A DNA stretch of 54,579 nt from a virus. A program made the position numbers and the translations under genes. The notes beneath the pieces were generated by a model that saw nothing but the letters and a program-made list of their open reading frames with translations, searched no databases and was not told the origin of the DNA. This document shows, one piece after another, positions 12,540 through 47,218 of this stretch (positions are counted from its first letter, which is position 1; every line of letters begins with the position of its first letter). Location of the stretch: positions 1 through 54,579 of the IMG/VR virus record IMGVR_UViG_3300047548_000110; one strand, given 5' to 3'.

Positions 12540-15500
12540 TTATTTGTGCATTTTTCGGACTACACCGCCCAGAGCTTTGTGGCTTACCATGCCGCCGCCA
12601 CGATAGTCTGTGGGCATATCCGGCCTCGGTGGAGCGCCATACTTGGCCAGAAGCTGCTTGCGCGGGTCGCCATACTGCATTCTATTGACTCCGCCGCCGC
12701 GACGATACTCCTGTGGCTGCTCAATCTCTTCCGGCTCAGCTTCTTGAATGATCACCTCTGGTTCTGGTGCTTCAGGCTCCGGGGCTGGCGGGCGGTAGTC
12801 ATCAGGGACAACCACGCCGGTATTCTCGCCTTCAACCGAGGACGGGATGTTAATTTCCTCTTCCTCAGCATTAGCGCCGACAGGGCTTGTGCCAGACATC
12901 CGAGCGGCTCCTTTTGTGCCTGCCATGCCAATATTTCTCAGGCGAGCCTGCTCGGCGGCAAACCTGTCTGCCCGCTGCTCAAGCTGGCGAAGCAGCGCAT
13001 TCAACTCCGCTGGTTTGCCGGTGTTGAGGATCTTTGTGACGCTTGCGGCCACCTCCTCATTCTTGAACAAATCTGGCGCTTTCCTCATGATCCTGAAGAA
13101 AAACTCTTTCGGGCCACCGGCAGCAAGATCCAGCATGGTCGCGGCCACATTGTCGCCCTCGAACTCCTTCTGAAGTTCTTTGCGGCGGCCTGTGGCTGAT
13201 CCTTGGGCAATTTGCTGGCCAGACTTCACGTTGCGCGATTCAGCCTTCAGGATGCCCTTGAACACCTCAAATTCCTGCGGCGTATCGAACAGGGTTTGCA
13301 GGCGGCCTACATTGTTCTCAGCACCCAGCACCTCTTCCGCTGCGTTTATAGCGTTTTTCGAGTTGCCGATCTTGTCGATGAACTGCTGGGCATAGCCAAT
13401 ACGCAGGGCATCCTTCTCAGCCGGGGTCAGCTTCGAGACATAGTCAGCAGCCCGGTCTGGAGCCATCTTCCCGAACTGGTTTCGGCCAAAATCAAGTGCG
13501 TCCAGTACCTCAAGGTCGCCCCTGTATTGGCTTCGGGCAATCTTGTAGTCAGGAACAACCTCATCCAGTACGTTCAGGAAGGTGTTTTTGTACTCATTCA
13601 GGGCATGGGATGCATCCTGAGCGGCAGCATTTTCGCTGCGGCGGCCAGACCGGATGATGTAATCCAAACCGCGCTTCATTTGATCCAGAGTCTTCACATC
13701 AGGAGCGGCAACCAGATCCATCTGATAGATACCCGGCTGGGTCTCGGTGATCTTGTAGATCTCCTTCATGTCGAACTTAGATGGATCTTCCCCCTTCGCG
13801 ATAGCGTTTGCCTTGCGAATCTTGTTGGTCTCCAGAACCTGCTGGTACGCCTGCTTGAACTGCGGCTGGTCAAGCATCGACAGGATGCGAGGATCCGTGA
13901 CTGTGCCGTACTTGTAGGCGTTTTCGTACAGGGTGTCGGCATTGCTGCGCAGATTGTCGGTCAGGGCTGTCTCGGTGTCGAACATGGTCTTGCCTTTGCC
14001 GACACGCTCCTCGACCATCTGCATGACGTTGCCCTTGGTCTTGCGGCCAGTCTTCAAGACATCCTTAACCATTTCAGTGCGGCCAGCACCGGGACGGTTT
14101 GCCACGGCCTCAGCCAAGTCAGTCAGGCCGGGGGACACATCGCGCAATTGAGTGCGCGGACGGGTTCCAGCAGGCTGCGGGCTTGGCATATAACCACGTT
14201 CCAGCGCAACCTGACGGATGGCCTGCTGCGGGGTCATCCCGTCCTGAGCCATCTTCTTAAGAACCTTGTCCAGCGCGGCCTCTTCAATCCGATTAGTCCC
14301 GGGCTTCAGCAGGCGTTTGTAGATCCCCTTGCCGCCTTCGTAGAGCAATTCACCACCCTTGCCCACGATCGGGCCGAGCGAGCCGCCAAACAGTGCGCCC
14401 TTGCCAGATTCGAGGAAGCGGCTGCCCAAACCCTCTTCGCCAGCGCCAAAGCCGGAGATGGCCCCGGAGGTAGCGCCTGCGGTCATCGCGCGGCGCACAG
14501 GCGTTTTGGTCAGCGAAGGCACGAGCCGAGACATCCTCGCTGCATTTGCTGCGGTTAGCTGTTGACCGCCGGGGACAGCCATTGCGGCGATAGAAGGCGC
14601 AACGCCGCCGGTGAATTCTCCGAACAGCGCCTGCCCGGGATTCTCTTCAGACCAGCGGCGATAGTCGGCGCGAATGTCATTCAGGATCTGGTCATAGCTT
14701 CTGTTGCTCTGGCCGAGCGAACGATACAAAGCCTCGGCCTCGTCACCGAATGACATCCCCATACCCTGACCAAAGAAGGCGCGGGCGCGGTTTCCCATAT
14801 CAGAAGCGGGCGGAGTCCCCCTCAGACGCACCACAGATTCGACCGGAGCATCCTCTGGGTCACCGCCCTGCTGCATCTTTACCGCGCCACCATGAGCGTA
14901 TTTCTGGCGAAGTGAAGCCAGATCACCATAGCCTTGGTAGTTGTTGACCATATCCACGATGCCGCCGTTTCCATAGCCAACCATCCCACCCTGAGCTTTG
15001 TGTTCGACAGGGTAGAAAAACTGCTTATAGGTCTTGCGGCGCGTGTTGATTACCGGCCTGTCTGGCTTTCGAGGGTCAAAAATTGGGTTGGCGTTCATGT
15101 AGGAGAGCCAAGCCGCATCAGCGCCATCGAGGTGGCGATTCGCCTGAAAGTAATCAGAGAAAAACTTCGCCTTATCCCTCAGAGACTGGTTGTATGCAAG
15201 CAGCGCAGCGCCAACGTCTTTGTTGGTTTCATAACCGTTTTCAATCGAAAGGGTCATTTTTATAAGCTGCTTGGCATCAAAGTCAGAAACTGATCCAGTG
15301 CCTTCTTTCCGGTTCTCCGGAGCCAGCTTAGATGCGATCGACTGCATCGTCTGGTATGGCGTTCCAAGAGTTATGCCGGGACGATAGGCGTAAGAAGGCC
15401 CAGTGGAGTTTTTCTTGTTGAGCGCCAAGAATCTCTTCACATCAGCATCTGTTGCCAATGTGTTTGAAGTTAGGCCCTCAAGTTTCGCCAAAGACTTTTG

Positions 15501-16745
15501 TGCGCCCTTTGTGTTGCTGACCAAAAGCTGCTGAACCGTCTTATCACCCACACCCTCATAAGGGCGAGTGTTTGAAGGAACGCCAAGCTGACGAGCAATA
15601 AAAGGCACATCCTCAAGATCAAGAACTGGCTCTTTTTCTTTTGGTGGTTTTGGCGGCGGGCGACCCTCGCGCTTCTCTTGAAGGCGAGCATTTTTTTCGT
15701 CTATCCGATATTGAGCGGCCTGAGCTTCTACAGCTTTTCGATCTGCCTCATTCTCAGGCACTGCGGCGCTGCCAAACTTCTCCTGCGCGGCACGAGCAAG
15801 ATGCTTGTCAGTGTAAAGTTTTCCCTGACTGCTTAATGGTGCTGGCTTTTCATCTTTTTTCTGGTCTTCAAGCCCAAGAATTTTTCGAGCGTCCGAAACC
15901 TCTTGTTCAGTGACGGAATTTGGGTCAAGTCTGTACTGCTCAAGAACTCTATAGGCTCTTTCTTTGAGATTAAAGCCGCTTGCATACTTGCCGCCCTCTA
16001 TTTTTTCCAACCCAAGTATGATGCGAGCATCTTTAAGCTCTTCTGGAGATACAGAGTTAGGGTCTTTCCTATGCTGCTGCACAACACCAAAGGCATATCT
16101 TTTCATTGCAGCAGTAGTGCCTGCGTCAGCAGCACCGGCTTTTGGCGCAGTCATACGGGCAATTCTTGCCTCGATCTGCTGACGCTCTGCGCTGCCCTCT
16201 GGCAGCGAAGCGGCTTCCATTTGAAGCTGTCGAACAGGAGATGCCGGAGCCTCTTTGATGCCAGCAGTGCGGACATATGCATCCAACTGAGCCTTAGACA
16301 GATCAGCGGCCTGAGAGCCAAGCTGCATCTTGTACTTCATCTGCATCTCTTCGAGGTCGCGCTTTGCCTTTAGCTTCTTGTCAGCCTCAGCGCCAAGAAC
16401 CTCGTTCACATTGCTGAGAGATTCACCAAAAGATCCGGTGCGCGTAGGCTTACCAAACGCTGCGGCAACACGGAACCATGCGCCAGCGTCCATCGGCTCA
16501 TTGGCACGTTGCAACAGGACGCGCTGAGCATCCTGCATGATCTCAGCATTCGTTTTCTGCGACTTTTCAAGTGCGGACACATAATTAGTTGCAGCAAGCA
16601 CAGCAGCATTTTTAGCGCCGGGACGAGAAAATCCAGAGGTTGGCATACGCTCCTCTGGCATACCCTCCGATGAAGCAGGCTGACTTACCTGCTCATCTTC
16701 ATAATCATCTTCAACGCCATCTGGGATTTCAAATGGATCAGCCAT
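12540..16745 (-). CDS. giant internal virion / DNA ejection protein
   Basis: 1401 residues, the largest gene here. N-terminal 300 residues are helical and hold two copies of a 38-40 residue repeat around 'DPNSVSPEELKDARIILGL' and 'DPNSVTEQEVSDARKILGL'. Centre (about 610-670) has QGGMVGYGNGGIV and YAHGGAVKMQQGG. Next comes an Ala/Gly-rich hydrophobic stretch (about 725-800), then long helices, a Pro-Glu linker and a C-terminus with YRRGGGV, YRGGGMV and LGGVVRK. The size and position fit the T7 gp15/gp16-type ejectosome. I see no transglycosylase or polymerase signature. Confidence 0.7.
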   Translation of the reverse strand: MADPFEIPDGVEDDYEDEQVSQPASSEGMPEERMPTSGFSRPGAKNAAVLAATNYVSALEKSQKTNAEIMQDAQRVLLQRANEPMDAGAWFRVAAAFGKPTRTGSFGESLSNVNEVLGAEADKKLKAKRDLEEMQMKYKMQLGSQAADLSKAQLDAYVRTAGIKEAPASPVRQLQMEAASLPEGSAERQQIEARIARMTAPKAGAADAGTTAAMKRYAFGVVQQHRKDPNSVSPEELKDARIILGLEKIEGGKYASGFNLKERAYRVLEQYRLDPNSVTEQEVSDARKILGLEDQKKDEKPAPLSSQGKLYTDKHLARAAQEKFGSAAVPENEADRKAVEAQAAQYRIDEKNARLQEKREGRPPPKPPKEKEPVLDLEDVPFIARQLGVPSNTRPYEGVGDKTVQQLLVSNTKGAQKSLAKLEGLTSNTLATDADVKRFLALNKKNSTGPSYAYRPGITLGTPYQTMQSIASKLAPENRKEGTGSVSDFDAKQLIKMTLSIENGYETNKDVGAALLAYNQSLRDKAKFFSDYFQANRHLDGADAAWLSYMNANPIFDPRKPDRPVINTRRKTYKQFFYPVEHKAQGGMVGYGNGGIVDMVNNYQGYGDLASLRQKYAHGGAVKMQQGGDPEDAPVESVVRLRGTPPASDMGNRARAFFGQGMGMSFGDEAEALYRSLGQSNRSYDQILNDIRADYRRWSEENPGQALFGEFTGGVAPSIAAMAVPGGQQLTAANAARMSRLVPSLTKTPVRRAMTAGATSGAISGFGAGEEGLGSRFLESGKGALFGGSLGPIVGKGGELLYEGGKGIYKRLLKPGTNRIEEAALDKVLKKMAQDGMTPQQAIRQVALERGYMPSPQPAGTRPRTQLRDVSPGLTDLAEAVANRPGAGRTEMVKDVLKTGRKTKGNVMQMVEERVGKGKTMFDTETALTDNLRSNADTLYENAYKYGTVTDPRILSMLDQPQFKQAYQQVLETNKIRKANAIAKGEDPSKFDMKEIYKITETQPGIYQMDLVAAPDVKTLDQMKRGLDYIIRSGRRSENAAAQDASHALNEYKNTFLNVLDEVVPDYKIARSQYRGDLEVLDALDFGRNQFGKMAPDRAADYVSKLTPAEKDALRIGYAQQFIDKIGNSKNAINAAEEVLGAENNVGRLQTLFDTPQEFEVFKGILKAESRNVKSGQQIAQGSATGRRKELQKEFEGDNVAATMLDLAAGGPKEFFFRIMRKAPDLFKNEEVAASVTKILNTGKPAELNALLRQLEQRADRFAAEQARLRNIGMAGTKGAARMSGTSPVGANAEEEEINIPSSVEGENTGVVVPDDYRPPAPEPEAPEPEVIIQEAEPEEIEQPQEYRRGGGVNRMQYGDPRKQLLAKYGAPPRPDMPTDYRGGGMVSHKALGGVVRKMHK

Positions 16746-16756
16746 TTTGATTTTCC

Positions 16757-17755
16757 TTATTTTGTCGGTGCGTTTAATCTACCCAAACCATAAACGGTTG
16801 CACCAAGTTGCGCGGCTTGAGACAGAGCGCCCGGGACATAAACGTCAGCAGGCCCAACATTTTCTGTGTATTGGCGAGTCGGAATTTGCAAACCACGAAT
16901 GGCGTTGTTGAGGAACGCAATCTGCTCGCGATCGTAGTCACGCTGACCAAGGAAGTCTTGATATGCAAGGTCGAGGCTGCGCTGTTGCTGGTTCTGCATT
17001 TGCTGACCGACACCCTCAATTGCACCAAGCCCAGTAAGGCCAAGGCTCTGCTGGAGCGCACCCTGTCTGGCAAGCTGCTCACCGGCCTGCAATTGTCTGG
17101 CAAGGTCTTGTGTCGAGATTGCGCCGGTAAGCTGGCCAAGCTGAGCCATGCGAGCCTGATCAGCAGCAGCCTGCTGTCCTGCCTGCGTATAGCCGCGCTC
17201 AAGCGTCTGCGCCTGCTGAGCCATTGTGGACTCTTGCAGATCGCGCATCGCCTTACCTAATGCCTCACCGCTACGGCTACCACCAAACGTCCCGCCACCA
17301 ATGAACTGACTTTGGACGGTCGGAATAATGTTTTCCGACATCTGTCGTTGGGCAAGATCACCAATGCGATTGACGACACTCGATGTGTACGGGTTCATGT
17401 ATGAACCGATCATATCGGGAGTTCGAGCAGATGCAGCCTGAAGATAAGGAGACGCTTGATCCAGTGCACTCGATGTGCCAGCATTTTGCGTATAGTTCAT
17501 CGCCTGACTCAGTGCTGGCTTATAGCTCATCGCGGCTTCTGGCGTTTGAGCAAAAGCCTGCTGCTGATATGGCGTAAGTTGAGCCAACCGAGGAAGGCCA
17601 TACCTTTGGTACGGCTCAGAGGCAATCGCGTTTGCTTTCGCAATCAGACCTTGCGTATAGTCGCTATACCAAGCAGGCGTATCTGTGGCTGACTTGCCGT
17701 ACTTGGTAACGGACTCAGGCGCTTTGCCGCCAAAGAGAAAATCGCTAAGAGACAT
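16757..17755 (-). CDS. internal virion structural protein (Ala/Gln-rich helical)
   Basis: 332 residues. Contains 'YMNPYTSSVV', 'FIGGGTFGGSRSGEALGKA' and long Gln/Ala-rich heptads (170-260), a signature I recall from virion proteins of marine and freshwater podoviruses. Probably a structural or ejected protein at the portal end. RBS GGGGGTAAAA. Confidence 0.7.
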   Translation of the reverse strand: MSLSDFLFGGKAPESVTKYGKSATDTPAWYSDYTQGLIAKANAIASEPYQRYGLPRLAQLTPYQQQAFAQTPEAAMSYKPALSQAMNYTQNAGTSSALDQASPYLQAASARTPDMIGSYMNPYTSSVVNRIGDLAQRQMSENIIPTVQSQFIGGGTFGGSRSGEALGKAMRDLQESTMAQQAQTLERGYTQAGQQAAADQARMAQLGQLTGAISTQDLARQLQAGEQLARQGALQQSLGLTGLGAIEGVGQQMQNQQQRSLDLAYQDFLGQRDYDREQIAFLNNAIRGLQIPTRQYTENVGPADVYVPGALSQAAQLGATVYGLGRLNAPTK

Positions 17756-17757
17756 TT

Positions 17758-19281
17758 TTACCCCCTACCTCTTTTTGAGGATTTAAGATATTCCAGTGGG
17801 CTTTTTGCATCAGGCGAGAACTTGCCTTGCGACAAAGCGCCGCCCTTTTGTTTACGCACTGCTTGGCGCATTTGCTCTAACTTGTTTGCCCCTGCTTTGC
17901 TCGAACCATTACCAAGAAGCGCAACGGTTTCAGCGTCGATCACAAATTCGCCATCAGAAAGAACAGCAGGAATATCATCAGACCTGCCATCAAAGTTGCC
18001 TTGAGTTGCAAGTGCGCTCAAGCCACCCTTTGCGAATTTACGCATTGTTCTCGGGATCTGGCCATAGGTGTAGTAGCCATACTCATCACGCGCTGGCTGA
18101 ACATTCCCGCCTTCCGCATATCTGATTGGCTCGTACACCGTTGGGCTAAAGAAGTCATGCTCTCCGCCTTGAGTGCCGTAACTGTAAATGTCGCCTTGGT
18201 ATCCAAGTTGATTGCGATTCATGCGATAGAGATCAAGCGGCTCATAAAAATCAGGGCTTCCAATTTGACCTTGGCTGCCGCTGCCAGATGGTTGGTCATC
18301 AGGTTTGTCTTGACTAAGCAAGGAGGCAGCGCCCAAGGCTAATGGGATGGAATACTGCGGATTAGAAACAGCCCAACTAACTGCGTCTTTCCCATACCCA
18401 AGAGCTTTGTCCAACATACTTTGTGGCTTGACCACATCGTCTAGCATTTCAATTTGTGGGCCGAATTGATTTATAGTCGTTTGGCTGGGGGTTAATCCAA
18501 CGGGCGGCACAGGATTGGTGGCTGGATTAAGAAGATCGTACCCAACTGGCGGCTTTAACCCACTACCCGGCATTTGGCTACCAGCAACCCCGGCTGCTTC
18601 ATCAAGAAAATCTACCGCAGTATTTGCCCCCAAATTAGACCCAGTGTAAACACCAGCGCCGGGAGATGGAGTTGTGGGTGGTGTTGTTGTCGATGCGGGC
18701 GGCGCAGTTACCGATGTTGGTGCAAACGGATTGTTTGGTGGCAACGGCCCATTACGCAAAATATCATCAGAAATATCAAGGGCGCTTTTCCCCAAATTTT
18801 GCCCTAGTTCATCGCCATAATTTGCGCCAAAAGAAGCAACATCACTTAATGGGGAAATGGGCTGTTTTGCAACAGAGCCAAGAATTTCATCGGCAGATTG
18901 CAAGCCAACATCACCAAGCTTATCAGCGGTGCTTGAAATGCCTTTTTGTAGTGCGGAAGCCTCTGATGTTGGCTGACTTCCACCAGTGCCAGATAGCGAA
19001 GCTGCCCCCCAAGTAGTGAGACCAGCGATTGCGCCGCCTTTAATGGCCTCATCAAAATCCTCGCCTTGGAGCAAGCCAGCAGCGGTATTCGCCGCACCAG
19101 CGGCCACTCCCATACCAGCCGCACCATAACCAAGTCCAGTAATACCAAATGCACCCGGGCCAGCAAATGTTGCTGCCGCCATAGTTGCAACAAATGTCAG
19201 CGGATCATCCAGTATTGGCTGAACGATGTATGTGTCTACAGCATCAACAACGCTCTCAATAGCTTCAACGACTATGCTCAT
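17758..19281 (-). CDS. internal virion protein with hydrophobic N-terminus and glycine-doublet tail
   Basis: 507 residues. Residues about 28-75 are Ala/Gly-rich and hydrophobic, possibly membrane-inserting on ejection. A Pro/Thr-rich linker follows (185-215). The C-terminal part holds YAEGGNV, FAKGGLS (416-422), the motif DGRSDDIPAVLSDGEFVID (431-449), 'KAGANKLEQMR' and QKGGALS. The DIPAxLSxGEFVI motif recurs in many phage tail and virion proteins. Basic end (SSKRGRG). Confidence 0.65.
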   Translation of the reverse strand: MSIVVEAIESVVDAVDTYIVQPILDDPLTFVATMAAATFAGPGAFGITGLGYGAAGMGVAAGAANTAAGLLQGEDFDEAIKGGAIAGLTTWGAASLSGTGGSQPTSEASALQKGISSTADKLGDVGLQSADEILGSVAKQPISPLSDVASFGANYGDELGQNLGKSALDISDDILRNGPLPPNNPFAPTSVTAPPASTTTPPTTPSPGAGVYTGSNLGANTAVDFLDEAAGVAGSQMPGSGLKPPVGYDLLNPATNPVPPVGLTPSQTTINQFGPQIEMLDDVVKPQSMLDKALGYGKDAVSWAVSNPQYSIPLALGAASLLSQDKPDDQPSGSGSQGQIGSPDFYEPLDLYRMNRNQLGYQGDIYSYGTQGGEHDFFSPTVYEPIRYAEGGNVQPARDEYGYYTYGQIPRTMRKFAKGGLSALATQGNFDGRSDDIPAVLSDGEFVIDAETVALLGNGSSKAGANKLEQMRQAVRKQKGGALSQGKFSPDAKSPLEYLKSSKRGRG

Positions 19282-19282
19282 G

Positions 19283-19963
19283 TTACACCTCGCCTTCCAT
19301 CGGGGATGGCTTTCTCAAGCCCTGTAATGCGCCAGTCATTTGCGGCGCTCTTTGTGGCATTGGCGGCTGCGCTGCCATATCCAAATCTTCACCAATGTCA
19401 GATTCTGCTTCACCAAGATCGCCAGACTGCATGGCTGCCATAGCCTTTTGTGCCGTTGCGTCACGAATTGCAGACATGGTTCTGTCCATATTTTCTCTGC
19501 CAATTGGTTTGGCAAGCTCAATTTGGTTTGGATCACCAACCATCAGATTCACAACGTATTGACCATCAGCGCCGGTCTTCACATCAAAACCCATGCCGGG
19601 GTTTGGTGGGCTGCGCTGGATGATCTTAAAAATATTGAGCAGGTTCTGGTCGCGGAACTTCGTTACCAGCAGATAATAGCCAGCCTTATATGCATCGATC
19701 ACAAACTGGTAGCTAGACTGCAAAAAGTTTTGTGCAGTATCAGCATTCAATGCGCGGAAAGACCCGACACCGGGCTTCTCAAGGTCGCCATGAATAATGA
19801 AAATCGTGTTACCGTAACGAAGAAACTTTGAGTTAGGCATCTGCGCTTCACGGGCAAAGGCTGCGTATACCATCTCCACTGGGTATTCGCTCTGCGTATT
19901 CTCAGCAGCAGCTTGCAGGAGTTCATTCACCTGCAACATCTGTTGTTTGCTATCAACGATCAT
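19283..19963 (-). CDS. virion-operon protein, unknown; weak GNAT-like pattern
   Basis: 226 residues. An alpha/beta N-terminal domain to about residue 150 ('FLRYGNTIFIIHGD', 'AYKAGYYLLVTKFRDQNLLNIF', 'GQYVVNLMVGD') is followed by an Ala/Gln/Pro-rich tail. The strand-helix order is loosely like a GNAT acyltransferase, but I see no clear acetyl-CoA binding motif. It follows the ketosynthase by 2 bases. It could instead be a structural protein. Confidence 0.6.
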   Translation of the reverse strand: MIVDSKQQMLQVNELLQAAAENTQSEYPVEMVYAAFAREAQMPNSKFLRYGNTIFIIHGDLEKPGVGSFRALNADTAQNFLQSSYQFVIDAYKAGYYLLVTKFRDQNLLNIFKIIQRSPPNPGMGFDVKTGADGQYVVNLMVGDPNQIELAKPIGRENMDRTMSAIRDATAQKAMAAMQSGDLGEAESDIGEDLDMAAQPPMPQRAPQMTGALQGLRKPSPMEGEV

Positions 19964-19965
19964 AA

Positions 19966-21078
19966 TTAGACCCTCATGTCAAAAAGTGCGGCTGAGTAAA
20001 CATTCCCCATGCCAGCAGCAAGACTCAGGCACAATCCATCGGGAAAATCAGTCGGTTGAGATAAAAAACGCTCGTCATGCGTAGTTCGGTTGGTTATGCT
20101 GGGTATTTGATCAGCTTTATAAGCTTCGACCATAAGGGCTGTCTCAAGCAGGCCACTTGCACCCATCGTATGACCGATTTTTTGTTTGAATGACGTAGCA
20201 ACGAAATCAGTAAACCGCGATAGTATCGCTGTCGCTTCAGACGCATTATTCGACTTCGTCCCCGTACCGTGTGTCTTGATAACCGCGACTTCATCAGCCT
20301 TCACCCCAGAAAAATGCAAAACGCCATCGATCGCTCGGACATATCCCTGACCATCCTCACGCTGACCAATGGCGTTGTTGATCTCTTCGCTTGCAGTCCA
20401 AGCGCCGACAAGCTCAGCAGTCGGAGTTCTAACTAGATGATCCTCTGACTCGAAGACAGCCAGAGCAGCGCCCTGACCGACGTAGAACCCATAATTCACA
20501 TCATCAAACGCGCTTGGCACAACGCCGTTCTTTTGCTTTTGATCTTCAGTGAGACAGGCTCCAGACTCACCAAAGAAATCGAGGACAGAATGGCTCACCG
20601 CGTCCTCAACAGTGAGGACAACGACACGGGCATACCCGTAGACCTTAATCAGTGTCTGAACATCCATCATTACCTTCAGGCTCGACACGCAAGCCGTTGC
20701 GTCCGTCGCTATGTAGTCGTTTGCGCCACAGGCTTGGGCGACTCGACCGGCATACACTTGCGTCAGACTCAGCGGCAAAAACTTGTACTGGTACGTCAGT
20801 CTCGACTCCTTCGCCATTCGTGGGTTGATCCCAGCGAAGTGCGCGTTGCCCGAGGCTAAAATAAAGGCGGTCTTCCCCGCCTTGGTTTGCTTCAACGAAT
20901 CCATCAGAGGCTTGTCCAGCACCTTGTCTGCAAGCTTGTGAGGTGGGTATATCAACCCTGTCTTCACATTCTTGTAGGTGTCTGGGAACCAATGTACCTC
21001 CTGCGGATAAAGCACATCATCAAACAGTTCTGTAGCCTCTGTTGATGCGGTTCTGTAATCTGTAAGGAATATTTTCAT
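19966..21078 (-). CDS. beta-ketoacyl-ACP synthase (KAS II/FabF-like)
   Basis: 370 residues with the full thiolase-fold ketosynthase triad: Cys130 in DATACVSSLK (nucleophile), His270 in KTHGTGTKSN, and Lys298 / His303 in KQKIGHTMGASG. Lys-x4-His spacing equals that of FabF (Lys335/His340). The C-terminus 'LAAGMGNVYSAALF' matches the closing glycine-rich strand. It is about 40 residues shorter than FabF, mostly at the N-terminus. Known enzymes condense acyl groups with malonyl-ACP in fatty acid or polyketide synthesis. ATG overlaps the ACP stop (ATGA), and it lies inside the virion operon. Confidence 0.88.
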   Translation of the reverse strand: MKIFLTDYRTASTEATELFDDVLYPQEVHWFPDTYKNVKTGLIYPPHKLADKVLDKPLMDSLKQTKAGKTAFILASGNAHFAGINPRMAKESRLTYQYKFLPLSLTQVYAGRVAQACGANDYIATDATACVSSLKVMMDVQTLIKVYGYARVVVLTVEDAVSHSVLDFFGESGACLTEDQKQKNGVVPSAFDDVNYGFYVGQGAALAVFESEDHLVRTPTAELVGAWTASEEINNAIGQREDGQGYVRAIDGVLHFSGVKADEVAVIKTHGTGTKSNNASEATAILSRFTDFVATSFKQKIGHTMGASGLLETALMVEAYKADQIPSITNRTTHDERFLSQPTDFPDGLCLSLAAGMGNVYSAALFDMRV

Positions 21079-21365
21079 TGAATATCCTTCAGAGCCTCAT
21101 CAGCAGATGCTGGCATCTTCTTTTGATGTAACATCAAAAAGTCATACAACTCTTGGACAGTTTTTGGCTGCAAGGTCTTGCCGGTTTCCTCGTCGATGGC
21201 AAACGCATCGCACATATAAATTCCGGTAAGCAACATATCCAAACTATCGAGGCCACAATTTGCGAAGTCATCAGACATCGAAGTTGCGTCCACATAATCA
21301 TCATTAAACGGCTTTGCAATCTTAGCTACTGCGTTCAGCAGCTTCAGGAACTCTTGTTCGTTCAT
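21075..21365 (-). CDS. acyl carrier protein-like
   Basis: 96 residues. 'FANCGLDSLDMLLTGIYMCDAF' region carries the Asp-Ser-Leu phosphopantetheine site at Ser41, in the helix II position and context of bacterial ACPs. The last third ('KTVQELYDFLMLH') matches helix IV. It is acidic overall, as ACPs are. Host AcpS would have to add the prosthetic arm. Coupled by 4-base overlaps to the 75-residue gene before it and the ketosynthase after it, so the two fatty-acyl proteins are made together, late in infection. Confidence 0.85.
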   Translation of the reverse strand: MNEQEFLKLLNAVAKIAKPFNDDYVDATSMSDDFANCGLDSLDMLLTGIYMCDAFAIDEETGKTLQPKTVQELYDFLMLHQKKMPASADEALKDIQ

Positions 21366-21589
21366 GCCATCACCTGTGCAAATCGACTAGCCCATTCACG
21401 CCAGTCTGAGAATTGAAGTGGGCTTGGAGGATTTTTCTGGCTTATGCCCGAGATAACGCAAAAAGCGACAGCCCACTCCTGCCACTTATTCTCGTCCATC
21501 AGCCTTGGGATTGGGCCGTATTCATCAAGGTCGAGTACGATCTGATCTGCCCAGTCTTGCAAGCCGATTATAACGGGTAAAGTTATCAA
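21362..21589 (-). CDS. small Trp-rich protein, TTG start
   Basis: 75 residues, starting at TTG 21589, which overlaps the previous stop (TTGA), with GGGGCG upstream; no ATG is better. 'LQFSDWREWASRFAQVMA' and 'NKWQEWAVAFCVISG' are repeated Trp-Glu-Trp helices. Small proteins with this W-x-x-W pattern occur in podovirus structural operons. Function unknown. Confidence 0.65.
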   Translation of the reverse strand: MITLPVIIGLQDWADQIVLDLDEYGPIPRLMDENKWQEWAVAFCVISGISQKNPPSPLQFSDWREWASRFAQVMA

Positions 21590-23217
21590 TTTGTCGCCCC
21601 AAGGACGGTTCCATCGGCCTCTTCAATATGGGCAATAACCTGCCCCATCTGATAGTCGCCATTGATCACGTTGGACTCAAACCGGAACCGCATCTCCCGC
21701 CGGATCTCCTTGAAGAAGATTACCTGTTCGAACGGGGTCATCGGGTTCGGTACGATGACCTTTTGCTCGCCGGGGATCTCTTTTGACCTAGCGTTTGCCC
21801 GCCCGGTGATCTGGACGGTCATGTTGCCGGACTGCACGAAATCCGGCTCCAAAAGCTCGCAGCGCAGGGACTTGTTCTTGCCCTGCATGACCAGATCGCT
21901 GATGTCGGCGGTCTCAAAGTAGCTCTGGATGGCGTTCTCAATGCTGATGTCCACCTCGTTGACCCCAACCTCGTGCTGCCAGAACTTGTAGTTGTCGCTT
22001 GAGTAGGTGATCCGGATGTCGCCTGTCTGGGTTGTCCGGGTATCGCCCGCCTCTGTGATCCGAATGTCTGGCGGCGGCTTGTTTGCGTTGAATCGCACCC
22101 CTGTCAGCAGCGGAGTGGCGAACTGGGTCGCAAATTCACCGGCAGAGCGGCCATCGTTGGGCAGTTGAGTGTCGTACCATGTCTGCTCTCGGATGTTGAA
22201 AATGATGGCGTGGGTGCATTCTGTGGCGGATCCTCTCGGGTAGCACCACCAAATTTCGCCAAAACGAGGCACTTTGAAGGCAAAAACCTTCTGAGAAGCC
22301 GCCCGGTTCAGACCATCAAAGAAATAGTTGATGTTCAGGTCGTTCGGGATGTCCCTGACCACGCCATTGAACATCAGAAAGCGGTCTACGCCGCACCAGA
22401 GGTAGATACCGTCGTACTCAATCACCGAATTCGGGGACAAAATCGAGCTTTGGGACGAAATGGTATCGAACTGGAAGGTCTGAGCGCCACCAACGAATGA
22501 AGCCCGCACCACCGCGTCGGTAGACCAATACAGGCCTGCTGGGGCGTTGCCGGGGCCACCCCGAAGCGGAAGTCCTCGGACGATCTTTTGCGCGGCTACG
22601 CGGGCGTTCCCGGAGCCGGGGCCAGTCAAATTGGTGGGGTCGCCGGGGGCAGACCAGCCAATCGAGCCATCAGTGCCAAAAACCGTCAGATACGGGTGCA
22701 GGACGCAGACCCCGCCGCTGGCAGACACGCCAGACGGAACTGGGACTTCAACCAGACGGTCGGTTGCCCGCAGGTCACCAACAAAAAGCTGCCCGCCGAG
22801 GGAGTTGTACAGGGAATCTAGGTTCTGGGCGACTTGCGCGATTATCTTGTTCGACGGAACCAGATTGATCGAGTCATACAGAACGTCGAATTGCCATGCG
22901 TTGCTGGCATCGTAATTCAGGGTCACAGGCGTTCTGTCCGTAACCGCACTTGCGTTGCCGTTCTGGTCAAGGGTGAATCGCTCAAGGTTCTCTGAGCTAC
23001 CAGAGTGAATGAAGGTGAAACCGTTTTCGGTGTACGTCTTCATCCCACGGCTGATCTGGTTCAGGTAATTGCTGACAGCCTTGTATCCGCCAATCTTACG
23101 AGGAAGACCGCGCTGGAAACGAACCCATTGTCCGTCAACGTAAAAATCTCCCTCGAATTTTGTCCCGTCCCGCTTGATCCCGGGCTTGGAAGCAATAATG
23201 ACTGGCGTTGCGGCCAT
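21586..23217 (-). CDS. tail plug / packaged-DNA stabilisation protein, gp10-like
   Basis: 543 residues, beta-rich throughout, starting MAATPVIIASKPGIKRDGTKF. It has the layout and motifs ('YDGIYLWCGVDRFLMFNG', 'FGEIWWCYPRG', 'NIREQTWYDTQLP') of the P22 gp10-like neck proteins that close the portal after packaging. Recognition is from memory of related podovirus proteins. Confidence 0.65.
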   Translation of the reverse strand: MAATPVIIASKPGIKRDGTKFEGDFYVDGQWVRFQRGLPRKIGGYKAVSNYLNQISRGMKTYTENGFTFIHSGSSENLERFTLDQNGNASAVTDRTPVTLNYDASNAWQFDVLYDSINLVPSNKIIAQVAQNLDSLYNSLGGQLFVGDLRATDRLVEVPVPSGVSASGGVCVLHPYLTVFGTDGSIGWSAPGDPTNLTGPGSGNARVAAQKIVRGLPLRGGPGNAPAGLYWSTDAVVRASFVGGAQTFQFDTISSQSSILSPNSVIEYDGIYLWCGVDRFLMFNGVVRDIPNDLNINYFFDGLNRAASQKVFAFKVPRFGEIWWCYPRGSATECTHAIIFNIREQTWYDTQLPNDGRSAGEFATQFATPLLTGVRFNANKPPPDIRITEAGDTRTTQTGDIRITYSSDNYKFWQHEVGVNEVDISIENAIQSYFETADISDLVMQGKNKSLRCELLEPDFVQSGNMTVQITGRANARSKEIPGEQKVIVPNPMTPFEQVIFFKEIRREMRFRFESNVINGDYQMGQVIAHIEEADGTVLGATN

Positions 23218-24346: not shown

Positions 24347-25000
24347 TTACGCCTCTTGTCTCGTAGTAGACCTGTCAAGAATCTTCTTCATATCTTCCTG
24401 ATTCAGTGAGTTGACAGCCATCTCATAAAATCCTTGCCACACAGGGATACGCTCGTCATTCTTCAAGAACGGCGTAGCCTCAAGCAACGTGCCATACAAA
24501 AGCGCATTCGGCGCATAATTTGTCAGCCAGTTCTGCTGTTGCTCATCATCCAGAAGTGGAGGGAGTTCGTAATACACGATCTCAACCGGGTAATCCTGAT
24601 CTGGAGTCTCGGCAAATAACCAGTGCTGGTAGTCATAGTCAGCATAGAAGGTAGGCTCGCCAAGCTGAGTCTGGTCAGGCCAGTACGTCCTGCAATACTC
24701 GTAACTGCGGGTGAACAGCGTCTTGCGCGTATTGTTCAAGGCTCCAGCGCCAATATTGATGGAGATCGTTTCACGCCATCTGTCGGGTTTAGCCATCACA
24801 CAAACGCCAGTCTGCATGGTAGTCACCACTACGGTTTGGAAGCCCTGAATCTTCAGGTCTCTGGCAATCCGGCGCTCAGCCAGATTGATCAACCTTGGGA
24901 TCTGCTCGTAGACAATCGGGTCTGTGGCGGCAGAAGCCCCACGCTCCAGATAGTTCCGAACGTCACCCTTGAGGTTGTTAAATGTCATTGCCTGCGGCAT
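24347..25000 (-). CDS. phage neck adaptor (SU10-type adaptor)
   Basis: 217 residues. 'MTFNNLKGDVRNYLERG', 'IPRLINLAERRIARDLKIQG', 'SYEYCRTYWPD' and 'YDYQHWLFAETPD' match adaptor proteins that sit below the portal in SU10/P22-like podoviruses. Known relatives form a dodecameric ring. Confidence 0.8.
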   Translation of the reverse strand: MPQAMTFNNLKGDVRNYLERGASAATDPIVYEQIPRLINLAERRIARDLKIQGFQTVVVTTMQTGVCVMAKPDRWRETISINIGAGALNNTRKTLFTRSYEYCRTYWPDQTQLGEPTFYADYDYQHWLFAETPDQDYPVEIVYYELPPLLDDEQQQNWLTNYAPNALLYGTLLEATPFLKNDERIPVWQGFYEMAVNSLNQEDMKKILDRSTTRQEA

Positions 25001-40396: not shown

Positions 40397-40816
40397 TTAG
40401 ATAAATGCTCGGATCTTCGTCGGATCGCCTTTGACCCGGCCAAGGATGTTCAGGTCATCGAACATCGCAAATTCAATCTCCTCGTCGCCCAGCTTGACCG
40501 TCCAGCGATCACCGCCGTACTTTGGGCTGCGGACGAAGTCGCCAACAGCGCACCATGCGCCCTCTGGCCATTGCTCCATCGTGTTCCGGTTGCGGTATGC
40601 CAGCACTCCGACCGCCACAACCTTTGCCACCTGCGTGTTGCTTGCTTCAGTCTTGCGAGCCTCTTCGGGGATATACAGCCCCGACTTGGTTTGCTGCTTT
40701 GCCCTGCGGATCTGGACAATCACTCGACTTCCCATCGGCTCAATCCCACAGTCAACATCTGGGAAAGCGTCCTCCAGCGAGTCATATTCCATTTCGATCG
40801 GGTTTTCTAATAGCAT
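40397..40816 (-). CDS. GroES-like co-chaperonin
   Basis: 139 residues. Residues 26-127 follow the GroES beta-barrel: 'EPMGSRVIVQ', mobile loop 'AKQQTKSGLYIPEEA' with the hydrophobic LYI tip in the place of GroES IVL, 'VAKVVAVG' and 'VGDFVRSPKYGG'. T4 gp31 and similar phage proteins replace host GroES to fold capsid proteins in a larger chamber. It sits between portal and scaffold. It has an extra acidic 25-residue N-terminus. Confidence 0.75.
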   Translation of the reverse strand: MLLENPIEMEYDSLEDAFPDVDCGIEPMGSRVIVQIRRAKQQTKSGLYIPEEARKTEASNTQVAKVVAVGVLAYRNRNTMEQWPEGAWCAVGDFVRSPKYGGDRWTVKLGDEEIEFAMFDDLNILGRVKGDPTKIRAFI

Positions 40817-46021: not shown

Positions 46022-46212
46022 GCTCTTCCTTCAAATGGGCTGTCCATCATCATGATCTGCTGGGCGGCCAACTGAGCCTGCTCATCATCCATCTGATCGA
46101 GGTTGATGATCTCGCCCTGAAGCGTCATCACCCACTTGAGCCGCCTGCCGTTGATCATGTGCTTGTCGCGGAACCACTCCACGAACTCCCGCTGGGTCAG
46201 CGGTGCGGTCAC
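46018..46212 (-). CDS. small protein next to TerS, unknown function
   Basis: 64 residues, starting MTAPLTQREFVEWFRDKHM. Coupled to TerS by 4-base overlap. Not recognised. Confidence 0.65.
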   Translation of the reverse strand: MTAPLTQREFVEWFRDKHMINGRRLKWVMTLQGEIINLDQMDDEQAQLAAQQIMMMDSPFEGRA

Positions 46213-46685
46213 TTGTCTCTCCGCGCCTGCTCCATTTTGGTCAGCAGGTCAGCAAAGAATGTCGATTCAGGGGTTACGGTCAGCGGGTTGTCCTTGTCAC
46301 CGGCAATGATCTGGCGGTCGCCATACTTCTTCGGCTTGAGCTTCGCGGCGATCCATTTGCGGCTATCTATACGCAACCTCATCCAATTAACATGGCCTGC
46401 GTCAACCCTAGCAATCCCTTTCTCATCAACCACTTGAGATGGCTCAGTATCGGCAATGTCAAGAATCTCTTCCTGCATTGTGTCGGCTTGATCTTCCTTC
46501 GCTTTCGCGTACTGGTGGAGGAATATCTCATTCTGAGACATCCACAAGTAGACAGTTTTGATGTCTGGCATCATCGGGTCACGGCAAATAGACTTCAATG
46601 ACTCCCCCTCCACCAGCCTAGCGCATATCTCTGCCGCCTTGTCTTCGCTATATGATGATGGCCGCCCAGCCTTTGCCTTATTCAT
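46209..46685 (-). CDS. terminase small subunit, Sf6 gp1-like
   Basis: 158 residues. 'GRPSSYSEDKAAEICARLVE' with helix-turn-helix 'SLKSICRDPMMPDIKTVYLWM' (about 29-49), then 'VNWMRLRIDSRKWIAAKLKPK' typical of Sf6-type small terminases. It binds the packaging site and recruits TerL. Confidence 0.85.
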   Translation of the reverse strand: MNKAKAGRPSSYSEDKAAEICARLVEGESLKSICRDPMMPDIKTVYLWMSQNEIFLHQYAKAKEDQADTMQEEILDIADTEPSQVVDEKGIARVDAGHVNWMRLRIDSRKWIAAKLKPKKYGDRQIIAGDKDNPLTVTPESTFFADLLTKMEQARRDK

Positions 46686-47218
46686 AACCCACTCCAGCAG
46701 CCAAACAAGTCTGGCCTTTTTTCAGCGGCATATTTCAATTTTGCAACAATTGATTTGTATTTTTCTGGGTCAGCCCCCGGTCTCTGTAAGAACTTTAAAC
46801 CTTGAGCCATAGCCCTTTTCATTTCCCACACTCTTTGGAAAAGCGGGTCACTTTTCCTTCTCTCGTTCAAACGAACGGCATTTTGTTTGCAAATCTCTGG
46901 AGAGCAGGATGGTGAATTTCCGCCATTTGCCATGTTAAGGAGCAGGCCTTCAGCCCGATATTGAGAAATCATTGCTTTTTCAAGCGACTGCCAATCTTCG
47001 GAGATTGCGGAGGCCAATTCAACCATTTGTATCGGCCTGCCATTATTTATTTGCTCTGTAATCCAAGAATACAGGTTGCTTTTTTTTGTGCGGGAACTGG
47101 AGATATGCGTTTTGAGCCTAGCTTGGACGTTGTTTGCTTTGCCAATGTAAACAATTTTATTGGTAACTGGATCGATAATTCCGTAAATTTTTGAAAACTT
47201 TTTCGTTGACTCGGACAT
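46682..47218 (-). CDS. GIY-YIG homing-type endonuclease
   Basis: 178 residues. IYGI (11-14), VYIGKA (23-28), Arg34, His38 and catalytic Glu80 (SLEKAM) give the GIY-YIG active site. The C-terminal half ('SPEICKQNAVRLNERRKSD') resembles the DNA-binding modules of mobile endonucleases. Base composition is visibly more AT-rich than the flanking genes. Placed immediately before TerS, it is probably a mobile free-standing gene. Confidence 0.8.
   Translation of the reverse strand: MSESTKKFSKIYGIIDPVTNKIVYIGKANNVQARLKTHISSSRTKKSNLYSWITEQINNGRPIQMVELASAISEDWQSLEKAMISQYRAEGLLLNMANGGNSPSCSPEICKQNAVRLNERRKSDPLFQRVWEMKRAMAQGLKFLQRPGADPEKYKSIVAKLKYAAEKRPDLFGCWSGL

Follow-up and report, generated by a model that had tools for sequence, protein, structure and literature searches.

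A diverged ketosynthase and acyl carrier protein in an apparent three-gene cassette among phage virion genes

The window analysed here, the whole 54,579-nucleotide stretch of the virus record IMGVR_UViG_3300047548_000110, encodes a FabF-like beta-ketoacyl-ACP synthase (KAS) and, directly upstream of it, an acyl carrier protein (ACP). The KAS is confirmed as a real ketosynthase of the elongating Cys-His-His type (KAS I/II) by its sequence, its active-site residues and its predicted fold, and the ACP is confirmed as a real acyl carrier protein by family profile, predicted fold and Asp-Ser-Leu motif taken together. Judged by sequence comparison, the unit to which both belong is a three-gene cassette, ACP-KAS-u226, an optional module between the tail-plug and ejection genes. 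What has to be explained is a KAS/ACP pair that has diverged in sequence but keeps its active site unchanged, present on hundreds of viral contigs and fixed among virion genes: either acyl chemistry of the phage's own modifies certain virions, or host lipids are altered by an entire phage lineage. The analysis suggests that the large group of uncultured bacterial viruses carrying the cassette may make an acyl-type chain of their own; to our knowledge, phages are not known to synthesise acyl chains for themselves. The genes concerned are listed below.

24347..25000, minus strand: gp4-like tail adaptor (PF24175, 2e-25)
21586..23217, minus strand: gp10-like virion protein (phrog_3287, 2.4e-30)
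21362..21589, minus strand: s75, small conserved gene at the upstream cassette edge, found with or without the cassette
21075..21365, minus strand: ACP, acyl carrier protein, 96 aa (family profile against the PDB, AF2, Foldseek)
19966..21078, minus strand: KAS, FabF-like beta-ketoacyl-ACP synthase, 370 aa (Pfam, PDB match, AF2, Foldseek, FabF residue mapping)
19283..19963, minus strand: u226, third cassette gene, 226 aa, no known family (locus clustering, alignment)
17758..19281, minus strand: u507, ejection-region protein at the downstream cassette edge, N-terminal part hydrophobic
16757..17755, minus strand: u332, DNA ejection protein-like (phrog_4287, 2.4e-9)

The ketosynthase and its gate

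The original prediction, made from the bare sequence, described a FabF-like protein with Cys130, His270, Lys298 and His303 intact, and this is borne out. The ORF is as described, and two separate alignments with E. coli FabF, one from hhalign and one from MAFFT, place Cys130, His270, Lys298, His303 and Glu312 on FabF Cys163, His303, Lys335, His340 and Glu349, with Thr272, Thr274 and Phe198 corresponding to Thr305, Thr307 and Phe229. The former five residues are kept in all 186 distinct KAS sequences; loss of catalytic residues in relatives, which had been named as a sign against the assignment, is seen neither among these nor among the 189 distinct ACP sequences. Both Pfam ketosynthase domains score over the cut-off (58 and 30.2 bits versus 20.8), and KAS matches solved FabF chains in the PDB at up to 1.8e-20, which puts the assignment well outside what chance would give. 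Structure prediction, proposed as a check on both proteins, gave the anticipated result, with a thiolase fold for KAS (AF2 pTM 0.91) and a helical bundle for ACP; the AF2 alignments for both left out the row from L001 (MW202545). The KAS model finds the actinorhodin ketosynthase, AntDE and FabF in Foldseek with E-values of 1e-23 to 1e-20. Identity to E. coli FabF is 26% over the aligned core, and the cut-off of the FabF equivalog TIGR03150 is missed by a wide interval (97.7 versus 493.75 bits).

The GFGGxN gate loop of FabF is absent from KAS, in which Gly356-Met357-Gly358-Asn359-x-Tyr361 replaces Gly399-Phe400-Gly401-Gly402-x-Asn404. The GMGN part of this GMGNxY motif is invariant across the family, Met357 being present in 185 of the 185 KAS sequences that cover the position. 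The loop is aligned with less certainty than the catalytic core; hhalign extended to it only when the accuracy filter was switched off, and the register obtained from MAFFT is the same. In FabF, Phe400, Gly402 and Asn404 all take part in the working of the gate, and the type I polyketide synthase DEBS has Val or Ile as its gate residue (PMC7138838). An altered substrate range or step order is therefore plausible for KAS, and its Met357, Asn359 and Tyr361 suggest that it may depart from the usual substrate or from the usual sequence of steps.

The acyl carrier protein

An ACP-like protein with Asp-Ser41-Leu directly upstream of KAS had likewise been proposed, and ORF, family profile and predicted fold all agree with it. 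In the model (pLDDT 88.5), helix 2 opens with Asp40-Ser41-Leu42, and an extra C-terminal helix (88-95) is added to the four-helix bundle; Asp40-Ser41 is kept in all 189 distinct ACP sequences. The outcome of the HMM searches differs between the two proteins, for while KAS exceeds both Pfam cut-offs, the ACP single sequence stays under that of PF00550, the PP-binding domain (13.2 versus 20.8 bits), and it is the family profile built from 51 sequences that finds solved ACPs in the PDB, from 8.7e-5. The best 50 Foldseek matches of the ACP model are carrier proteins or complexes containing one, with E-values of at least 0.03 as expected for such a small fold, and complex I and MukBEF entries are among the structural matches. 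Helix 2 is without some of the acidic positions present in E. coli AcpP, which would fit a private partner.

Gene order and distribution

The pair had been placed between a tail plug and the ejection proteins, and the matches on either side agree: the gp10-like virion protein (phrog_3287), whose homologue in MW202545 is annotated as 'phage stabilization protein', flanks the cassette upstream, and the DNA-ejection-protein match (phrog_4287) lies three genes downstream. Going by this position, KAS and ACP are probably expressed late. The stop of ACP and the start of KAS overlap by four bases (ATGA), a junction conserved in 125-135 of 141 relatives that the original prediction took to mean that the two proteins are made together. 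The overlap is real, but the coordinates give four-base overlaps at gp10/s75 and s75/ACP as well, so that it is a trait of the operon rather than of the pair, and its value as a sign of a special KAS/ACP relationship is weakened.

No other fatty-acid enzyme (FabG, FabZ, FabI or SDR) was found by a Pfam scan of about 40 of the ORFs in the window, not all of the small ones among them, and on this set the pair is therefore not a whole pathway. Elsewhere the window carries a chaperonin-10 (GroES-like) gene (40397-40816, minus strand), of which MW202545 also has one, a gene for a 1401-aa ejection-region protein (12540-16745, minus strand) whose sole match is the uncharacterised phrog_5880 (1.2e-42), and a GIY-YIG nuclease gene (46682-47218, minus strand) adjoining a gene for an Sf6-like small terminase (46209-46685).

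A first scan of IMG/VR gave 167 KAS relatives and a scan from a distant member at least 552. The survey of relatives confirmed the expected co-occurrence, ACP lying directly upstream of KAS in 142 of the 142 loci in which the contig covers the site; the remaining viral KAS locus (L132) ends at the contig edge where ACP would sit. As some loci overlap or share one contig, the numbers of distinct sequences (186 KAS and 189 ACP) are the safer count. Measured against the relative L003, dN/dS is about 0.08 for KAS and about 0.07 for ACP, and selection on both is, by these estimates, strongly purifying. The median identity of KAS (62%) is the highest among the genes compared, which include gp4 (46%), gp10 (40%) and u226 (46%).

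Among annotated phage records only MW202545 (phage ctpbd312, Manatee Spring) has a true relative of the pair, with KAS 60% and ACP 36% identical to those of the window, while a BFVD/UniProt entry from an uncultured Caudovirales phage, A0A6J7X0R1 ('FabB'), is a KAS relative with 58% identity. For both of these we found database names only and no functional description. For MW202545 (L001, 20001-20154), homology supports a KAS start about 150 bases upstream of the deposited one, and the database protein is accordingly without its N-terminal part. Phage-database matches from Listeria, Enterococcus, Staphylococcus, Pseudomonas and faecal contigs, unannotated and 23-29% identical, were not accepted as relatives; we take them to be probable bacterial FabF in contaminated contigs. 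One contig of a bacterial genome, a Balneolaceae MAG (L083), also holds the pair, but was not accepted as identifying the host because a viral contig may have been misbinned.

The third gene and the cassette-free relatives

The original prediction had a unit of two genes; the pairing stands, and the extent does not, u226 being the third gene of the cassette. With gp4 as the reference gene for phages that have the cassette and phages that lack it, the proteins encoded around gp4 were clustered in 85 cassette-bearing and 23 cassette-free loci. Three clusters separate the two sets, namely KAS (85 versus 0), u226 (84 versus 0) and ACP (84 versus 0), where the presence of KAS and ACP entered the definition of the sets and the absence of u226 was part of how the cassette-free set was defined; all remaining clusters fall far short of separating the sets. 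Because there is no further separating cluster and u226 follows KAS in 241 of the 242 loci with room for it, the unit comprises ACP, KAS and u226. One locus, L018, has ACP and KAS without u226 and shows unrelated sequence downstream of KAS (after 11104).

The cassette site lies between s75, the small gene after the gp10-like protein, and the ejection-type protein u507. A search based on gp4 found relatives whose contigs span the site and yet have neither KAS nor ACP, and in many of these s75 is followed directly by a u507 homologue. The gene u507 occurs in 81 of the 85 cassette-bearing and 7 of the 23 cassette-free loci, a difference that is confounded by ancestry. On the gp4 tree, whose internal support is weak, the cassette-free state requires at least 10 changes, and repeated gain and loss or a recombining region would therefore be needed to account for it.

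The first approximately 145 residues of u226 are conserved in the alignment, and family searches gave no match to any known family. The gene is not exclusive to the cassette, as distant homologues occupy the same place in some cassette-free phages (L195 5026-5385, L204 5799-6158, L208 5145-5561 and L193 4967-5380; hhalign P 1.6e-8). By eye, these latter proteins are candidates for a resemblance to T7 gp13-like GNAT proteins. The idea that u226 is a GNAT acyltransferase like T7 gp13 likewise comes from a likeness seen by eye and received no support from hhalign (P 0.28, 0.25 and 0.74 against GNAT families and T7 gp13); the sensitivity of this comparison is limited, for T7 gp13 itself, used as a control, reached 1.3e-5 against GNAT but 0.46 against a second GNAT set, and GNAT stays a candidate assignment.

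Six loci (L148, L250, L256, L257, L258 and L297) have ACP and u226 without KAS. Five of them keep a KTHG...NN relic at the joint, which is the His270 motif of the ketosynthase, and the sixth (L297) has a clean joint and no relic; Ser41 of ACP and u226 are intact in all six. No intact viral locus was found with KAS but without ACP. Since KAS has been lost alone and ACP never, the dependence is of KAS on the phage ACP and not the reverse, and from these losses ACP looks like the core and KAS like its dedicated, losable partner. The C-terminus of ACP is altered in the loci with a relic, which may simply be part of the KAS deletion, as it overlaps the KAS start.

Proposed function

From what is established about how Cys-His-His ketosynthases work, the likeliest activity is that acyl and malonyl units are condensed on the phage ACP. 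It is highly probable that KAS would act on this ACP, and an acyl-ACP-based activity of the pair is very likely on the strength of its sequences. In the reading that we favour, the ACP and its dedicated elongating KAS would be expressed from the virion-gene operon, probably late in infection, and Ser41 would be loaded by a host phosphopantetheinyl transferase. As the invariant active site implies, Cys130 would then take the acyl chain, and His270, His303 and Lys298 would serve its condensation with a malonyl unit to yield a modified acyl-ACP. From this the acyl group would pass, probably with the help of u226, to some part of the ejection apparatus, whose genes adjoin the cassette. We assign this whole chain, from a phage-made acyl-ACP modified by KAS to transfer, probably with u226, to the ejection apparatus, a probability of roughly 0.35; that the acyl group ends on a virion component has rather less than an even chance.

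Two points favour delivery to the ejection machinery: the cassette sits at a single fixed site beside the ejection genes and brings u226 with it, and the neighbouring u507, whose N-terminal part is hydrophobic, is more frequent where the cassette is present, albeit in a manner confounded by ancestry; u507 would be a candidate acyl acceptor or membrane partner. Against this, no acyltransferase fold could be recognised in u226, distant homologues of u226 occur in some phages that lack the cassette, and a position in the virion operon is no proof of packaging. The cassette is also missing from relatives that have the same ejection genes, so virions of this type cannot depend on acylation. It is possible, if doubtful, that the three genes form a phage acylation system in which a carrier, an oddly gated KAS and a third protein attach a special acyl chain to an ejection protein; were this true, the machinery of DNA delivery would bear a phage-made lipid anchor or membrane-active chain.

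A serious rival, although in itself rather unlikely, is remodelling of the host envelope, whereby phage acyl-ACP would feed host acyltransferases and alter the acyl chains of membrane lipid or lipopolysaccharide late in infection, the cassette being an auxiliary metabolic gene set that might block superinfection or ease lysis. The complete KAS active site and the ACP speak for this, the cassette is optional as accessory metabolic genes often are, and there are reports of fabF, acpP and fabG from both prophages and viromes (PMC8224337, PMC10653327). However, the cassette occupies a single fixed site among the virion genes of one phage type rather than being scattered by insertion, u226 is always in train, FabG, FabZ and FabI were not found among the scanned ORFs, and the sequence is far from host FabF, as the 26% core identity indicates.

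Two further explanations are less likely. Interference with host lipid synthesis, in which ACP would compete for phosphopantetheine and malonyl groups and a loosely gated KAS would drain malonyl-ACP until host synthesis stopped, we hold to be improbable. Genes for host shut-off are usually early and lie outside the virion operon, unlike this pair, and the drain needs KAS, yet some lineages have dropped KAS and kept ACP. The replacement of the gate residue Phe400 by Met in 185 of the 185 sequences covering the position could be read in favour of such a drain, as FabF with the F400A mutation no longer controls the order of its reactions and yields triacetic acid lactone, a shunt product (PMC7138838), but Met is hydrophobic like the Val and Ile gates of working type I polyketide ketosynthases. 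Structural re-use of KAS and ACP as assembly or scaffold proteins without catalysis would suit their position among virion genes and the use of ACP as a subunit in machinery unconnected with lipids (complex I and MukBEF among the structural matches), but is very unlikely in that Cys130, His270, His303, Lys298 and Glu312 are invariant where a scaffold would tolerate their loss, an argument that is weaker against a scaffold role of ACP alone. The choice between modified virions and altered host lipids is made testable by the natural absence of the cassette from close relatives, including cultured Caulobacter phages, and by the variants that have lost KAS.

Comparison with known systems

One close parallel is with FabF (KAS II) and AcpP of bacterial type II fatty acid synthesis, with which the phage pair shares the Cys-His-His-Lys site, the predicted thiolase fold, the ACP fold with its Asp-Ser-Leu, and adjacent genes as in acpP-fabF. 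The differences lie in the low core identity, the score below the FabF equivalog cut-off and the GMGNxY gate in place of GFGGxN and, on the side of the carrier, in the additional C-terminal helix and the score below the PF00550 cut-off.

Phage-borne genes of this pathway have been described before: fabG-acpP-fabF occurs in three Rhodobacteraceae prophages, in an order like that of the host, and the genes were termed auxiliary metabolic genes (PMC8224337), and fabF is listed among virome genes (PMC10653327, PMC12783922). The Rhodobacteraceae prophages have ACP and KAS side by side as in the window, whereas the pair described here is diverged, has no fabG in the scanned ORFs and holds a fixed place in the virion operon lineage-wide; it shows neither the close similarity to host fab genes nor, among the scanned ORFs, the fabG that mark a host-derived fab set.

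The NodE/NodF system also consists of an ACP followed by a KAS, the two being dedicated to each other and separate from the housekeeping synthesis of fatty acids. The likeness drawn to it in the original prediction is one of gene order, carrier first, and of pairing only; the phage setting is different. A type III polyketide synthase needs no ACP. That of Streptomyces phage ZL12 (D0UWK5) is also a phage-encoded condensing enzyme of the thiolase superfamily, but it is of type III and superimposes on the phage KAS with a TM-score of only 0.49.

Within the phage collection searched, the closest cultured relatives of the virion module are the Caulobacter phages RLK, RW, KcrB and GB2A, in all four of which gp4 is 63% identical to that of the window. 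In RLK, gp10 (54% identical), s75 (42%) and u332 (43%) are likewise recognisable, and s75 runs directly into the u507 homologue, the homologues of gp10, s75, u507 and u332 following one another without gaps; ACP, KAS and u226 were not found in the 28.6 kb read. The genes of RLK (L414) between 14001 and 21526 are all annotated as hypothetical and can be named from the window (gp4, gp10, s75, u507 and u332). A literature search, preprints and most subscription journals lying outside its coverage, found no paper on the diverged pair, on the cassette or on where it sits among the genes of the virion operon. Set against these systems, the parts belong to known superfamilies, and what is new is a variation in their arrangement.
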